Under the pieces are notes generated by a model. The model was not told where the DNA came from. It ran no database searches and worked only from the letters and a program-made list of their open reading frames with translations. Positions 569 to 30,642 of a stretch of DNA of 64,000 nt are shown here, in pieces; within the stretch, counting starts at the first letter, position 1; every line of letters begins with the position of its first letter. The stretch spans positions 1-64,000 of the forward strand of contig NZ_QGGO01000007.1 in NCBI RefSeq assembly GCF_003148625.1, given 5' to 3'. The position numbers and the translations under genes were made by a program. The DNA comes from Arcicella aurantiaca. Lineage in GTDB: Bacteria; Bacteroidota; Bacteroidia; Cytophagales; Spirosomataceae.

Positions 569-1123
569 TTATCTATTTGATTGTATTTTTTCCCTACAAA
601 TTTTCTCAACTTTTGAGATTGTATCAGGATTTTCTAAGATGTAAAGCATATATGGAACAACATATTTTGTCTTATATTTACCAACAAAGGTTCGACCTGA
701 TTTTAGTTGTAGGCTAAGTTCTCCCTTTGTTAGATTGGTTTCAATAATCCCAGAGAATTCACTCCAATGATAAGATTTTACTACTCCACCGAAATAATAA
801 ATAAGTCTGCTTGGCGTTCCGACAAAATATCCTCCTTTCTGATTCTTTAAATAAAAACCCAATATTGCCATTAATATTCCGCCTAAAAACGGGATGAATA
901 ACAGAAATAAAGTAAGTGTATCCAATACTTCGTCTTGCGATAGAGAGACAATCGAGTTAATGATGAAAAAAGAAGATATTGGTGCGATTATCATCATTAT
1001 AGAAATGCCAAACACAAAATATGTTTTATGTGGAGGTCTATGTTTTGTAGAAATAACCGAAAATTCAATGGGTTCTTGATCAATAGTAGAGCGTAATTCT
1101 GATGGTAATAATATGTTGTTCAT
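569..1123 (-). CDS. two-helix membrane protein of unknown function
   Basis: The product is 184 residues and matches no family I recognise. It has two hydrophobic segments, about residues 34-58 and 69-92, after a polar N-terminus. The C-terminal half (about 93-184) is soluble and alternates strand-like stretches (SRLIYYFGGVVKSYHWSEF, SLQLKSGRTFVGKYKTKY) with a final helix, compatible with a PH-like cytosolic domain, though that is only an impression. The stop codon is about 8 bp from the neighbouring insertion sequence, so the original C-terminus may have been slightly changed. Upstream is the palindromic repeat at 1226-1337, then mazG on the same strand. Confidence 0.6.
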   Translation of the reverse strand: MNNILLPSELRSTIDQEPIEFSVISTKHRPPHKTYFVFGISIMMIIAPISSFFIINSIVSLSQDEVLDTLTLFLLFIPFLGGILMAILGFYLKNQKGGYFVGTPSRLIYYFGGVVKSYHWSEFSGIIETNLTKGELSLQLKSGRTFVGKYKTKYVVPYMLYILENPDTISKVEKICREKIQSNR

Positions 1124-1225
1124 AGTAGATATGTGTTAAATAGTTAATCTGATTTAAAATGGTTCAAGTTTAACTGAACAATTTGTCGGTATAGGCTTAA
1201 CAATTGCACCAGTTGAGGGTAAAAA

Positions 1226-1337
1226 AGCCATAGGCTTGACCAATTTTGTAGCGATGAGTTTCAACCCATCGATGAAAATATATCGTTTCCCAACGGATTA
1301 GAAATCCGTTGCTACAAAATCGGTCGAGCCTATGGCT
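1226..1337. repeat. 112-bp inverted repeat element, GTAGC family
   Basis: Arms 1226-1252 and 1311-1337 are inverted copies with 25 of 27 bases matching (AGCCATAGGCT...TTTTGTAGC). Between them lie smaller stem-loops. The same arms bound 20380-20565, so this is an interspersed family. A frame through it encodes HRYKIGQAYGFF at both loci, a by-product of the repeat and not a protein. Confidence 0.8.
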
Positions 1338-1363
1338 CTTGTGGTATTTAAGCGTATAATCCC

Positions 1364-2182
1364 CTACAACCGCTTCGCCTCTTCCCAATACACATCCATT
1401 TCTGCCAAAGTCATTTTGGGAAGAGTTTTGCCTAATTCTTTGGCTCTTGATTCTAAATGATTGAAGCGTTTGATGAATTTTTTATTGGTGCGTTCCAAAG
1501 CCGTTTCTACGTTGATGTTGATAAAACGGGCATAATTAACCAATGAAAATAGTAAATCGCCAAATTCTCCTTCGGCTTTTTCTACATTGATAGCTTCATT
1601 TTCAACTACATTAAATTCATTTTTGAATTCTTCCATTTCTTCCTCTACTTTTTCCCAAACTTGCGTTTTTTCTTCCCAATCAAAACCCGCACCACGAGCT
1701 TTTTCTTGAATACGCATGGCTTTTACCAAAGCTGGTAACGAAGCAGGTACACCACCCAAAACCGATTTATTACCACCGCCTTCTTTCAGTTTAATGGCTT
1801 CCCAATTTTGTTTCACTTCTTGTTCGTTTTCCACTTTCACATCGCCGTATATGTGCGGGTGGCGGTGAATGAGTTTTTCGCAAATACCATTTAATACATC
1901 AGCAACGTCAAAAGTATTTGTCTCCGAAGCAATCTTTGAATAAAATACCAAATGAAGCATAATATCGCCAATTTCCTTCTTGATTTCCTGCATATCGCCT
2001 TCCATAATGGCATCCGAAAGCTCGTAAGTTTCTTCAATGGTCAGGTGTCTTAGACTTTCGATGGTCTGTTTTTTATCCCAAGGACATTGCTCACGGAGTT
2101 CATCCATGATGGTCAGAAGGCGGTCAAAAGCCATTAATTGAGACTGGCGTTTTTCGGGTAAATTATTGAAAGTTTCGTTCAT
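1364..2182 (-). CDS. mazG: nucleoside triphosphate pyrophosphohydrolase MazG
   Basis: MazG hydrolyses (d)NTPs to monophosphate and pyrophosphate, cleaning the nucleotide pool and in some bacteria lowering ppGpp-related signals. The 272-residue length fits the two-domain enterobacterial type. The first domain has CPWDKKQT (33-40), the acidic motif IEETYEL (49-55) and EIGDIMLHL (70-78), giving the E-x-x-E / E-x-x-D metal-binding pattern. The second domain repeats it as EEEMEEFKNE and EGEFGDLLFSLVNY. The ATG at 2180-2182 is the natural start. A promoter candidate lies at 2314-2344, just after the helicase stop codon, so the gene probably has its own transcript. Confidence 0.95.
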   Translation of the reverse strand: MNETFNNLPEKRQSQLMAFDRLLTIMDELREQCPWDKKQTIESLRHLTIEETYELSDAIMEGDMQEIKKEIGDIMLHLVFYSKIASETNTFDVADVLNGICEKLIHRHPHIYGDVKVENEQEVKQNWEAIKLKEGGGNKSVLGGVPASLPALVKAMRIQEKARGAGFDWEEKTQVWEKVEEEMEEFKNEFNVVENEAINVEKAEGEFGDLLFSLVNYARFININVETALERTNKKFIKRFNHLESRAKELGKTLPKMTLAEMDVYWEEAKRL

Positions 2183-6744: not shown

Positions 6745-7281
6745 TTATGTCAATAACTTTTCGAGTCTGATTCTATCGGGAAAACCAGGTGATTTTATTT
6801 CAATTGATTTTCCACATTTATCAGAAGTGGAAATATCTTGGAGTTTTTTAGAAGAAGTAAATGTGATGTTATATTTTGGACTCAACAATATTCTTTTGAA
6901 ACTAAAACAATCACTTGATTTATTGATATAATTGGATAATTCATTGCAATATTTTATAAAAATCTCAGAAGCAACAAACTGATTTACATAATCCTTTTCC
7001 TTTGGCTTCATTGATTTTAATTCAAAAAGAATTATTGTTTGTTGCGAAGGAATTATCAAACAGTAGTCACATCCTTTATGGATAATTGGCGTTTCTCGCT
7101 TCAAATACATTGATTTACGCTTATACTCTTTCTTATCAATGTCCAATTTTAATAGGATTGCATCATCAGGTATTCCACCAATCGAAATTTCTTGATTAGT
7201 GTCTTCTTCCTTCAATTTCATTATATGATTTATTTGGTCGAAACTTTGAATTACTTCGACATCGCAGAAAATATCTTTCAT
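6745..7281 (-). CDS. small protein with PD-(D/E)XK-like signature, partner of the ATPase gene
   Basis: The 178-residue product belongs to no family I can name. Its middle part reads CDYCLIIPSQQTIILFELKS (71-90), so Asp72 is followed after 14 residues by Glu87-Leu-Lys89 in a strand-rich setting, the classical D-x(10-20)-E-x-K pattern of PD-(D/E)XK nucleases. A helix with Gln101 follows (NQFVASEIFIKYCNEL), like the helix after the core in many such enzymes. It starts 9 bp after the ATPase stop codon, so the two are very likely co-transcribed. Both are AT-rich compared with upp and rhlE. A nuclease effector driven by the ATPase is an inference; a non-catalytic partner is possible. Confidence 0.6.
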   Translation of the reverse strand: MKDIFCDVEVIQSFDQINHIMKLKEEDTNQEISIGGIPDDAILLKLDIDKKEYKRKSMYLKRETPIIHKGCDYCLIIPSQQTIILFELKSMKPKEKDYVNQFVASEIFIKYCNELSNYINKSSDCFSFKRILLSPKYNITFTSSKKLQDISTSDKCGKSIEIKSPGFPDRIRLEKLLT

Positions 7282-7290
7282 AGGTAGATA

Positions 7291-8631
7291 CTAATCAATT
7301 AAATAATCTAAATCTGATGCAATTGAAAATAAATGATTGATTTCTTCATCAAAAAATGGTATTTCAATACCTTTATTTGTTACAACTAAGTTTTCTAATT
7401 TTCCATCTTTGGCTTGATAAACAGAAACTTTCTTAAATTCAATTTTATCTTTTTCTGAATAGCTTTTTTTGTTTTTATTTAACCAACTATCTTTACCTTC
7501 AAAAGAATTTGAGAGCAAAATTAAATTATTTAACTCTTTGATTAAAAAATCACTATGGGTTGTAATAAATACTTTTATTTTTGAGTTTATGAGAGAAACC
7601 AATAATTTAGCCATTAAGCGTTGGTTTTTCAATGTCAAATGGCTTTCTGGTTCATCTATAATTAAAATATCCCCCTCTTTCGCTTGATGATTTAAGTAGA
7701 AATAAATATCTACAATACATCTGGCAGATGATGAAGCTAAATAAAGTGGAATATCAAATTTGTTATTTTTTTTATTTTTAGTGTAAAAGCGAATATCTTG
7801 TTTATTATCCTTTTTAAAATCTGCCCCTAATATATCCTTAATAATTTCCATTGAATAACTTGTATCAATATTGGATGTATATTTTTTTATTTTTTCAATA
7901 TTTCTGGTGAATGAAATATGGTCTCGAATAGGGGTTGCATAGTAGGCTGTCATTGACATCAAAAGTTCAAATGGATGAATATCTTCATCTTTTTCCAGTT
8001 TCTGTAAACCATCAATAAGTGATGTTCTTTTTTCATCTAACTCTTTATAAAATAGTGAAATACCCAATCTTTCAGCAGTAATAATAACAGGTTCTGGGAA
8101 TATATCATCAAATACTAAACTTGAAAAAATATCCCCAATTACTCGTTTGAATAATCTGTCATCCAGTTCATTATCACCTTGTTTGGTATAACTTATTGAT
8201 AAAGAATTATCTTGCAATTTCCCTTCAATTACTATGCTTTTCCCTATTTGAACTTTCCTTTCAGAATTTTTGAAATCCGTTGGTTTATCAAACTCTAATT
8301 TTACTTTTGCATTACTAAACTGTCCTTCCTTATCATTAAACAAATCCTTAATTCGTTCTTGGAATTTCTCGCTTTCAGAAACAATACTTTCAGTCACTAA
8401 GACTATGATATCTTCTTTATTTAATGTAATTTGACCATTCCTCTTAAGCTTTGTTTCGATTAGCCCAAAACTATTATAATTTATAAAATCCTTCCAATTG
8501 TTAAGCAAGCCATATATACTGTAGGTAATATAAGTTTTTCCAGCGTTGTTATCTCCAACAAGCAGAGTTAGTTCATTAAGCTCAAGCTCACTATGGTCTA
8601 TTTTGCCTAAATTGTTTATTGTTAATTTCAT
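7291..8631 (-). CDS. AAA/ABC-class ATPase (OLD- or RloA-like), partner of the gene at 6745-7281
   Basis: The product (446 residues from the ATG at 8629-8631) is an SMC/ABC-type ATPase of the AAA_15/AAA_21 group. It opens MKLTINNLGKIDHSELELNE, followed by Walker A GDNNAGKT (26-33). Near the C-terminus are an ABC-signature-like stretch LASSSARCIVDIYF, Walker B DILIIDEPESH (321-331) and the switch histidine in ITTHSDF. The middle insert (about 60-290) is variable. No TOPRIM domain follows, unlike OLD or GajA proteins, so a nuclease would have to come from the partner. A start ten codons earlier is possible but would place non-domain residues before the first strand. Such ATPases are common in phage defence modules; the role here is inferred. 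Confidence 0.8.
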   Translation of the reverse strand: MKLTINNLGKIDHSELELNELTLLVGDNNAGKTYITYSIYGLLNNWKDFINYNSFGLIETKLKRNGQITLNKEDIIVLVTESIVSESEKFQERIKDLFNDKEGQFSNAKVKLEFDKPTDFKNSERKVQIGKSIVIEGKLQDNSLSISYTKQGDNELDDRLFKRVIGDIFSSLVFDDIFPEPVIITAERLGISLFYKELDEKRTSLIDGLQKLEKDEDIHPFELLMSMTAYYATPIRDHISFTRNIEKIKKYTSNIDTSYSMEIIKDILGADFKKDNKQDIRFYTKNKKNNKFDIPLYLASSSARCIVDIYFYLNHQAKEGDILIIDEPESHLTLKNQRLMAKLLVSLINSKIKVFITTHSDFLIKELNNLILLSNSFEGKDSWLNKNKKSYSEKDKIEFKKVSVYQAKDGKLENLVVTNKGIEIPFFDEEINHLFSIASDLDYLID

Positions 8632-8710
8632 TAATTTAGTGTTATATAGAAGATTGTTCAAATGAGATAATTTTTTATGTTGCTATTTCAGAAAAATCTA
8701 TCTTGTAATT

Positions 8711-28354: not shown

Positions 28355-30043
28355 ATGTTACAAAATCTAATCATAAAAAATTACGCTCTTATTGAGCATC
28401 TTGACTTTGCCCCTGACCGTTCTCTGAATATCATTACGGGTGAAACAGGTGCGGGAAAGTCAATTATGTTAGGAGCAATCGGGTTGTTATTGGGTAATCG
28501 TGCTGATACCAAAACGCTTTATAATCCGTCTGAAAAATGTGTAATTGAGGGAGAATTTAATATTTCTGGATACATTATCAAGAATATTTTTGAGGAGGAA
28601 GAGTTAGATTATGAAGAGCATTGTATCATTCGCCGAGAGATTTCTCCGCAAGGAAAAACTCGTGCATTTATCAATGATACGCCCGTAAATTTGGAAACGC
28701 TTCGCAGAATCACCTCTCAATTAATGGATGTGCATTCTCAGCATGATAATTTACTTTTGGGGGCAAATGAGTATCAACTCCAAATTGTAGATACGTTTGC
28801 TCAGAATAGCGAGATTTTAGACAAATATAAGGCTGATTATCAACTATATAATAAGGCTAATCAGGCGTATCAGCAACTTTTGGTTGATGCCAAAGAAAGC
28901 AAAAAAGAGTTTGATTATAATTCTTTTTTGTTAGATGAATTGCAAAAAGTTAAATTAAAGAAAGGCGAATTAGAGGTTTTGGAACAAGACCTTAATAAAC
29001 TTGAAAATGCAGAAGATGTCAAATCAAAATTAACGGCAGCTGCCTTGTATTTGAATGCTCCTGACCAATCTATTATTTCATTTTTGAGTGCCACCGTCGT
29101 TAATCTGAACAGTATTAGTAATTACGGCGAGCAGTATAATCAGTTAAGAAATCGTTTGCAAAGTTGTTTAATTGAGCTGAAAGATGTAGCTGATGAGGTA
29201 GAAAGTGAAGCGGAAGAAGTAGAATTAGACAATGAAAAAATCTCGACAATTCAGCAGAGATTAGATTTATTGTACAATCTTTTGCAAAAACACCAAGTCA
29301 AAACCGACCAAGAATTAATGGATATTCAGAAAGACTTGGAAGCCAAAGTGGGTAAGGTTTTGAACATTGATGAAGCCTTAGAGAAGGCAAAAATGCAGGT
29401 TGAAAAAACCGAGAAAGTATTACAGAAAAGTGCCGAAGCATTGTCAAAATCACGTGTGGCGGTGTTACCAGTAATGGAGAAACAGCTCGCTGACCTTCTC
29501 AAAGATTTAGGAATGCCTAATGCCAGTTTGAAAATTGAAAATGAACAGGTAAAGCCAACCAATACAGGCACTAACATTATCAATTTACTGTTTTCTGCGA
29601 ATAAGGGCATTAAACCACAACCAATCAAAAATGTGGCTTCGGGCGGTGAATTTAGCCGTTTGATGTTGGCGATAAAGTATATTTTAGCTAATAAAAGGGC
29701 TTTGCCAACCATTATTTTTGATGAAATTGATACAGGTATTTCGGGGGAAGTATCTATAAAAGTGGGGAATATGATGCGTGAAATGTCACGTAGTCACCAA
29801 ATTATTGCCATTACGCATTTGCATCAAATTGCAGCACAAGGTTCGGCACATTATTTTGTTTATAAAGATAATTCTTCAGCAAGAACTGTTTCTCGAATTA
29901 GAAAACTAACTAATGAAGAACGAGTAATGGAAATTGCCCAAATGATTGGCGGACAAAATCCTTCAAAAGCTATTGTAGATAATGCCCGTGAGATTTTGAG
30001 TAAGCATTTAGTAGAATTGACAAATTATAAATTGGATTTGTAA
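28355..30043 (+). CDS. recN: DNA repair protein RecN
   Basis: RecN is an SMC-like ATPase that acts early at double-strand breaks. The 562-residue product has Walker A GETGAGKS (29-36) near the start, two coiled-coil arms rich in Glu/Lys (about 150-380), then ASGGEFSRLMLAIKYI, Walker B TIIFDEIDTGISG and the switch ITHLHQIA. HSQHDNLLLG, after the first arm, is the expected RecN signature. Length is typical. The start lies 2 bp after the broken toxin, and a DUF433/DUF5615 pair follows 2 bp after its stop, so recN is tightly packed between two toxin-antitoxin loci. Confidence 0.95.
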   Translation: MLQNLIIKNYALIEHLDFAPDRSLNIITGETGAGKSIMLGAIGLLLGNRADTKTLYNPSEKCVIEGEFNISGYIIKNIFEEEELDYEEHCIIRREISPQGKTRAFINDTPVNLETLRRITSQLMDVHSQHDNLLLGANEYQLQIVDTFAQNSEILDKYKADYQLYNKANQAYQQLLVDAKESKKEFDYNSFLLDELQKVKLKKGELEVLEQDLNKLENAEDVKSKLTAAALYLNAPDQSIISFLSATVVNLNSISNYGEQYNQLRNRLQSCLIELKDVADEVESEAEEVELDNEKISTIQQRLDLLYNLLQKHQVKTDQELMDIQKDLEAKVGKVLNIDEALEKAKMQVEKTEKVLQKSAEALSKSRVAVLPVMEKQLADLLKDLGMPNASLKIENEQVKPTNTGTNIINLLFSANKGIKPQPIKNVASGGEFSRLMLAIKYILANKRALPTIIFDEIDTGISGEVSIKVGNMMREMSRSHQIIAITHLHQIAAQGSAHYFVYKDNSSARTVSRIRKLTNEERVMEIAQMIGGQNPSKAIVDNAREILSKHLVELTNYKLDL

Positions 30044-30045
30044 AT

Positions 30046-30285
30046 ATGGAAACATCATCTTTGCTTGATAGAATCACGATAAACCCATTGGTTTGTCATG
30101 GTAAACCAACAATTCGTAATAAACGATATATGGTTGAATCTATGTTAGAATATCTTTCAGCAGGAGATTCGATTGAAGAATTATTGATAGAATTTCCAGA
30201 TTTGGAAAGAGAAGATTTCTTAGCGTGTATTCAATTTGCAACAAAAGCCTTGAAAACGAAGACTTATCACTTAGCCGTAGCCTAA
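30046..30285 (+). CDS. DUF433 antitoxin-like protein
   Basis: The 79-residue product is a DUF433 domain protein: ITINPLVCHGKPTIRNKRYM, then MLEYLSAGDSIEELLIEFPDLE, the usual GKP-x-I-x-x-x-R and G-x-S-x-E-E-I motifs of a winged-helix DNA-binding antitoxin. It should bind and silence the PIN-like toxin next door and repress the pair. The start is 2 bp after recN and the stop directly abuts the toxin ATG (30286), a typical TA arrangement. Confidence 0.88.
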   Translation: METSSLLDRITINPLVCHGKPTIRNKRYMVESMLEYLSAGDSIEELLIEFPDLEREDFLACIQFATKALKTKTYHLAVA

Positions 30286-30642
30286 ATGAAATTTTTATTG
30301 GATGCACATTTACCTCCTTCCTTGAAAAAAGTGTTTCTTGATAGGGGTTTTGACACAATTCATACATTGGATTTGCCCCTCCAAAATGATACAGATGATT
30401 CTACAATTAATAGAATTGTTACAGAACAAGAAAGAATTTTGATAACAAAAGATGATGATTTTTATGATACTTTCATCATTAAACAAATTCCTGTAAAATT
30501 AGTATTGGTTAAAACAGGGAATATCAGTAAAAATGATTTAAAAGAACTATTTGAAGTAAACTTAGATAGGATTATTACGCTTTTAGATGATAATGATTTA
30601 CTTATTTTGACCAAAAAAACGCTTTTCGGATACAATCAATAA
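30286..30642 (+). CDS. DUF5615 PIN-like toxin
   Basis: The 118-residue product is a PIN-like protein of the DUF5615/Mut7-C group. It starts KFLLDAHLPPSLKKVFLDRG, with the first acidic residue Asp6, then ILITKDDDFYD with the second acidic cluster and KLVLVKTGNISKNDL. PIN domains cleave RNA with bound metal; here the target is unknown. With the preceding DUF433 gene it forms a toxin-antitoxin pair. The spacing of 0 bp and the small size support this. Confidence 0.85.
   Translation: MKFLLDAHLPPSLKKVFLDRGFDTIHTLDLPLQNDTDDSTINRIVTEQERILITKDDDFYDTFIIKQIPVKLVLVKTGNISKNDLKELFEVNLDRIITLLDDNDLLILTKKTLFGYNQ

Follow-up and report, generated by a model that had tools for sequence, protein, structure and literature searches.

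A paired OLD/SMC-type ATPase and putative PD-(D/E)XK nuclease in Arcicella aurantiaca, probably a divergent member of the PD-T4-4/PDC-M47 family of anti-phage systems

The window analysed here, a 64,000-nucleotide stretch of Arcicella aurantiaca DNA, carries two adjacent minus-strand genes. Gene A (7291-8631, minus strand) starts with ATG and encodes a 446-residue OLD/SMC-type ABC ATPase resembling PD-T4-4_A, and gene B (6745-7281, minus strand), which likewise starts with ATG, encodes a 178-residue putative PD-(D/E)XK nuclease that resembles PD-T4-4_B but is divergent. A spacer of 9 bp (7282-7290, minus strand) separates them, which is compatible with a single operon; the equivalent spacer of an Arcicella relative (L002) is 10 bp. 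This is the layout described in the first-pass annotation, namely a two-gene module with an ATPase gene and, 9 bp further on, a small partner, and we confirmed both reading frames on the minus strand as well as the length of the gap from the coordinates. Upstream, 79 bp (8632-8710, minus strand) lie between A and a DEAD-box helicase gene on the same strand. A longer open reading frame for A, starting with TTG at 8661, is present in the list of open reading frames; the start was taken as the ATG at 8631 because the proteins of six relatives (L002-L007) begin there with MK(L/I/V)T..NLGK. Terminator-like sites were not found between 6500 and 8800, where 0.8 would be expected by chance.

Both genes had been described as AT-rich relative to their neighbours, and this held: their GC contents are 0.275 (A) and 0.289 (B) versus 0.363-0.390 for six measured neighbouring genes and 0.355 for the window. 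Of 622 sliding windows of 1887 bp only 2 reached this AT content, and both may simply coincide with the module.

We compared A with several collections of protein families. In Pfam it matched AAA_15 (E 9.5e-22) as well as AAA_21, and the matches up to E 1 were of AAA, ABC or SMC types together with one sub-threshold F420_ligase; the absence of a TOPRIM domain, as originally claimed, was borne out by the lack of any TOPRIM match. In NCBIfam 20 families matched, every one of them below its own cut-off. The HMM search against PADLOC that had been proposed as a check returned a full-length match for A and a match for B, both to PD-T4-4. For A, the best of 64 PADLOC families was PD-T4-4_A (PDLC04033, 377.8 bits), with residues 1-444 aligned to positions 1-457 of the 460-position profile, followed by PDC-M47A (306.6 bits), a second PD-T4-4_A model (191.3 bits) and AriA (83.9 bits); among the matches listed, Old scored 46.9 bits and GajA at most 42.3 bits. 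The protein carries GDNNAGKT (K32), R188, LASSSARC, LIIDEPE (D326/E327) and TTHSD (H359), which we take to be the Walker A motif, the arginine of an A-E-R motif, a signature-like motif, the Walker B motif and the H-loop, respectively. Residues K32, R188, D326, E327 and H359 are invariant across the 15 intact pairs described below. A structural model of A (pLDDT 70.3 overall, below 50 at 115 of 446 residues) gave 111 Foldseek matches at E <= 0.001, and the best 50 of these comprised retron and Septu PtuA, GajA, OLD, Rad50 and similar proteins at TM scores of ~0.3. By sequence, the PDB matches of A were ABCE1-type proteins, retron PtuA and other ATPases (best E 8e-5).

Septu (PtuAB), Gabija (GajAB), OLD and PARIS share a related ATPase fold with A. 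Septu was rejected as an identity for the pair, as neither Pfam nor PADLOC gave an HNH match to B up to E 1, and so were Gabija and OLD, A having no TOPRIM match and ending at 446 residues. For RloAB, no RloB-like match to B was obtained in Pfam, PADLOC or NCBIfam. The earlier view that the pair is distinct from Septu and Gabija was upheld: its partner gave neither an HNH nor a UvrD-like match, and A scores far lower against their ATPases. The further claim that B resembles no described second subunit was refuted, since B matches PD-T4-4_B in PADLOC. The best model was PDLC04035 (42.2 bits, E 1.6e-11, judged without PADLOC's own score thresholds), and the eight families matched up to E 1 were all PD-T4-4_B or PDC-M47B, the latter at 38.6 bits. 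Because its score is low, we regard B as a divergent member of PD-T4-4_B. Pfam gave no family reaching its cut-off for B and no HNH, UvrD-like or TOPRIM match, and NCBIfam gave no match.

The first-pass annotation had pointed to D72-x14-E87-L-K89 in B as the signature of a PD-(D/E)XK nuclease, and D72, E87, L88 and K89 are all at the positions claimed. Across the 15 intact pairs D47, D72, K89 and Q101 are invariant, while position 87 is E in ten, D in four (three enterobacterial plasmids and a Vibrio phage) and N in one (L016). Since D72 and K89 are kept in 15 of 15, and ten of these B proteins are only 19-27% identical to that of the window where measured, the motif goes beyond chance. In the L016 protein (926-1477, minus strand), which comes from the genus of the window, the motif reads C-N-L-K with N replacing the motif E, and this B is possibly an inactive or altered nuclease.

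Evidence for the fold of B is of several kinds. Structure prediction, which had been put forward as a check, was done with AlphaFold2, and the model built from a five-sequence alignment was poor (pLDDT 58.2, pTM 0.58); its elements run in the order strand with D72, strand with E87 followed by K89, long helix with Q101, and strand, which we take to be the order of the PD-(D/E)XK core. Of the 382 Foldseek hits to this poor model none reached E <= 0.001, no restriction-like match came up, and gelsolin-like and other non-nuclease proteins stood at the top of the best 50. We also used hhalign to align a profile of 15 B sequences with one of 16 standalone HSDR_N_2 proteins, which placed K-x2-D, E-x-K and Q in register. 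The score was 26.2, at a probability of only 11%. Shuffling the columns 100 times gave at most 20.8, reversing the profile gave 13.0 and a part of A scored 15.3; a wider alignment of 24 B sequences scored 23.9 against a shuffle maximum of 17.7. Searched against PDB sequences, the B profile found no nuclease: up to E 10 it gave four hits, all to ribosomal bL36 (E 0.18-0.56). Among 24 B-like proteins scanned jointly, 18 matched a PDC-M47B model at E <= 0.01, three matched phrog_14491 of PHROGs (best E 3.6e-5, otherwise weak) and two matched HSDR_N of Pfam (best E 0.0087). B is likely to have a restriction-like fold, as judged from its motif and profile.

A search of genome contigs with B yielded six loci, in Arcicella (two), Flavobacterium succinicans, a Sphingobacteriales MAG, Kaistella haifensis and a Cytophagales MAG. 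A lies directly upstream at all six, and B is intact at four; it is split between frames at L006 and stops after 89 residues, 128 bp from the contig end, at L007/L014. Identity to the window proteins is 54-81% for the four intact B and 65-86% for the six A. Because B itself was the query, these six loci are biased toward pairs; the 12 loci found by way of A include ten with an intact B, one with a remnant and one with none. Counting the window, L002-L007, L009, L010, L016-L019, L040-L044 and L065, there are 19 whole-length A genes, and an intact B follows directly in 15 and a cut or damaged B in three (L006, L007 and L018, the L018 remnant being 62 residues long). In the remaining locus, L010, B is absent and A reads IIDSPE where the window has IIDEPE, with the Walker B glutamate lost. 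Occurrence of the two genes together in other genomes had been proposed as a test of the module, and this pairing was found, with an intact adjacent B at 15 of 19 A loci; the order A first, B next, in one direction, is that of the window. Loci L011, L012 and L020-L031 lie outside the count of 19 (short or ~520-residue ATPases, other divergent ATPases, or A in two frames). The B-like proteins of L011, L012, L020-L022, L025, L026, L028 and L029 were used in alignment A4 alone, and that of L030 in both A3 and A4; L023 and part of L024 were not among the inspected loci.

The distance matrices of A and B correlate with r 0.856 over the 15 pairs, kinship of the genomes being uncorrected, and with r 0.677 when one member of the close clade is kept (n = 11); none of 2000 permutations was as high in either case. 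A and B are co-inherited.

We also asked whether the pair might be a decaying relic without function, a reading that the damaged relatives bring to mind, namely the split B of L006, the 62-residue remnant of L018, the 89-residue B of L007/L014 and the L010 ATPase without its Walker B glutamate. Comparison of the window B with four relatives gave dN of 0.12-0.44 and, in the three computable pairs, dS of 1.5-1.8. For five close pairs, A gave dN values of 0.09-0.27 and B values of 0.12-0.50; dS is close to saturation, since it exceeded 1.5 in 16 of 20 comparisons and was incomputable in four. A and B are under purifying selection, with dN far below dS in both, and in the window both genes are open with their catalytic residues intact, which makes decay extremely improbable. 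Instead, the sequences indicate that the pair is probably a divergent, intact-looking and functional member of a published family.

The neighbouring genes encode the DEAD-box helicase, an alpha/beta hydrolase-type protein, uracil phosphoribosyltransferase and a PIF1-like helicase. When nine further window proteins were searched against PADLOC, only the PIF1-like and RecN-like proteins matched at E <= 1e-5. Judged by its predicted genes, the neighbourhood is a housekeeping one and not a defence island, which weighs against the anti-phage reading. An ATPase of SMC/RecN-like type and a nuclease in such a setting might serve repair of the cell's own DNA in connection with the helicase, without any role in defence. 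The pair does follow this housekeeping helicase on the same strand, 79-83 bp behind it, in three of eight genus genomes (G000, G400 and G401), and Rad50 is among the structural matches of A. However, the helicase is present in all eight genus genomes, and in four of them another gene comes after it: a PIF1-like gene (G398, G399), a tyrosine-recombinase integrase (G396) or a different gene (G395); in G397 the contig ends ~136 bp past the helicase. Against a repair function also stand the close relatives outside the genus, which occupy other sites (the L004 pair lies between genes read by eye as rimM and trmD), the finding of B in only 1 of 295 class genomes, that of the window itself, and the distant relatives on small plasmids and in a Vibrio phage. 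We consider repair very unlikely. Patchy gain and loss at the helicase site fits an accessory defence gene, and the module is, on its sequence features, very probably anti-phage. In G396 the tyrosine recombinase gene (L035, 3-1232, minus strand) lies 250 bp behind the helicase in the slot of the pair, a possible insertion hot spot, and a distant pair with an A protein 32% identical to that of the window lies elsewhere in the same genome (L016).

Distribution beyond the genus was examined with both proteins. The family is thinly distributed: PD-T4-4_A matched at E <= 1e-20 in 5 of 395 genomes of the class and 11 of 395 of the phylum, with the window among them and some of these being partial matches to other ATPases. 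Plasmids and phages searched with B by tblastn at E 0.01 gave no match, and the five-sequence B alignment found none among viral contigs either. A, used as the query instead, matched 33 plasmid and four phage records, and B followed A in all six regions that were opened (five plasmid, one phage). In Vibrio phage 1.202.O the pair sits between a CI repressor gene and a gene for a DNA breaking-rejoining enzyme. At L040 (1352-3350) and L043 (1501-3559) the pair is carried on small Col-type plasmids of 4.8 and 4.3 kb from E. coli and Klebsiella, whose listed genes barely extend beyond Rop, an HTH protein and the A-B pair, the PLSDB gene tables being incomplete.

The pair had been put forward as possibly undescribed. 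This did not stand, as PADLOC (2023) holds models for both genes (PD-T4-4 and PDC-M47) and two related systems are published, PD-T4-4 and WonAB (PMC9519451, PMC12137116). According to the accessible portion of the report by Vassallo et al., PD-T4-4 was obtained in 2022 by functional selection in E. coli, and the E. coli original lies in an ICE-like defence locus (PMC9519451); the excerpt of a 2023 review lists for it an AAA domain together with a predicted PD(D/E)XK nuclease (PMC10952713). The window pair shares with PD-T4-4 its gene order, a full-length match to the ATPase family and a small PD-(D/E)XK-like partner in which the motif is the same. It differs in that B is only 21-26% identical to the B proteins of three enterobacterial plasmids, measures 178 residues versus 198-210 in those copies and has E at position 87 where those three have D, and in that its context is chromosomal and housekeeping, unlike the ICE-like defence locus described for the E. 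coli original (PMC9519451, in part). These comparisons with the tested PD-T4-4 of E. coli ECOR58, and those with WonAB below, were made through PADLOC models and the text of the papers rather than through their sequences.

PDC-M47, a phage defence candidate of PADLOC whose name gave no match in a full-text literature search, also matches both genes. PADLOC scores favour PD-T4-4 for A (377.8 versus 306.6 bits) and for B (42.2 versus 38.6 bits). In trees of the 15 pairs, by contrast, the clade of the window groups with the PDC-M47-like L017 and L041 (SH-like support 0.84 for A and 0.86 for B), whose A proteins match PDC-M47A best at 656 and 767 bits, respectively. The enterobacterial plasmid copies L040 and L043 form a separate clade and match best the second PD-T4-4_A model, which gives 191 bits with the A protein of the window; that the trees place the window's clade apart from these PD-T4-4-like copies counts against the PD-T4-4 kind. 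Since the scores favour PD-T4-4 and the trees place the pair with PDC-M47-like members, we assign it to a joint PD-T4-4/PDC-M47 family without choosing between the two names.

WonAB, for which Adams et al. (2025) state a similarity to PD-T4-4, likewise pairs an OLD-ABC ATPase with a small PD-(D/E)xK variant encoded after it, and the accessible part of their paper cites for it the 'OLD-ABC ATPase + Novel REase' class of Krishnan et al. (PMC12137116); the system is retold in the available text of a 2025 review (PMC12409358). As described there by its authors, function requires both genes and is lost with WonA K34A, R182A, E300A or H333A or with WonB K71A (PMC12137116). WonA K34, R182, E300 and H333 plausibly correspond, by motif and order and without alignment, to K32, R188, E327 and H359 of A, and on the same unaligned basis WonB K71 would correspond to K89 of B. 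WonB, at 16.1 kDa and with its lysine at position 71, differs from the B protein of the window (PMC12137116, in part).

We consider it highly likely that these two genes form a chromosomal system of PD-T4-4/PDC-M47 type directed against phages, in which A would sense infection and B would cut nucleic acid, bringing the infection to a stop. A would dimerise through its ABC ATP-binding sites and act both as the infection sensor and as a platform that holds and licenses B. A phage cue may then alter the ATP state of A and activate B, whose predicted metal-dependent PD-(D/E)XK site (D72, E87, K89, Q101 and perhaps D47) would cleave nucleic acid. Infection would be stopped, and the cell would most likely be sacrificed in the process.

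Two other readings concern what B does once the pair is in place. Within the same family, B could cut phage DNA directly, giving restriction-like immunity that spares the cell. In the set of Vassallo et al., 11 systems have DNA-binding or cleavage parts and 7 of the 11 provide direct immunity, figures that the accessible text gives for the whole set without singling out PD-T4-4 (PMC9519451). WonAB speaks against such cleavage, being a relative, albeit one outside the clade of the window, whose activation is described in the available text as arresting growth and translation with genomic DNA intact (PMC12137116). We regard direct cutting of phage DNA as a possible but rather unlikely course of events. 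The pair might alternatively be a toxin-antitoxin system in which A merely sequesters a toxic B, as its make-up, a two-gene operon with a small putative nuclease, would allow, and toxin-antitoxin-like defence systems are among those found by Vassallo et al. (PMC9519451, in part). Overproduced WonB, on the other hand, is toxic only with active WonA, and because of this requirement its authors, in the accessible text, rule out simple sequestration for WonAB (PMC12137116). For the window pair, sequestration is very improbable. We return to an anti-phage module in which A licenses B. From arrest without loss of genomic DNA, the authors of WonAB suggest rRNA or tRNA as the target of WonB, as the available portion of their paper puts it (PMC12137116). 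By analogy, we infer that the window copy works like WonAB.

The locus is not a new kind of system; its value is as a comparative case for what B cuts. It adds a compact Bacteroidota clade, with intact and damaged copies, to the tested and mechanistically open PD-T4-4/WonAB family, and the alignment names D47, D72, E/D87, K89 and Q101 as candidate residues for mutation. OLD/SMC-type ATPases are normally tied to DNA nucleases. It is conceivable, though we think it doubtful, that the putative restriction-like PD-(D/E)XK protein B of the PD-T4-4/WonAB-like family, gated by an OLD/SMC-type ATPase, has turned into an RNase that cuts tRNA or rRNA and so strikes the translation machinery. If so, the invariant D47 and the freedom among E, D and N at position 87 would represent an RNA-cutting variant of the active site.

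Further observations concern more distant pairs and other genes of the window. Loci L020-L022, L028 and L029 encode OLD-type ATPases of ~515-525 residues followed by proteins of 156-209 residues with (P/C/A)-D-(F/Y) ... E-(I/L/M)-K-(K/S)-G. They form a second branch, possibly similar to WonAB; the B protein of L022, the one scanned singly, gave no PADLOC hit at E <= 1e-10. Within the window, the gene at 28355-30043 (plus strand) encodes a RecN-like SMC ATPase, presumably RecN itself, that scored 100.5 bits against mad3 of PADLOC. It was dropped as a defence gene on account of its SMC_N/RecN-type layout and is probably housekeeping, and its mad3 score illustrates that ATPase hits in PADLOC cross-react. 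At 30046-30642 (plus strand) lie genes for a DUF433 protein and then a DUF5615/Mut7-C-like protein (Pfam E 8.9e-21 and 9.7e-22), a small toxin-antitoxin-like layout.
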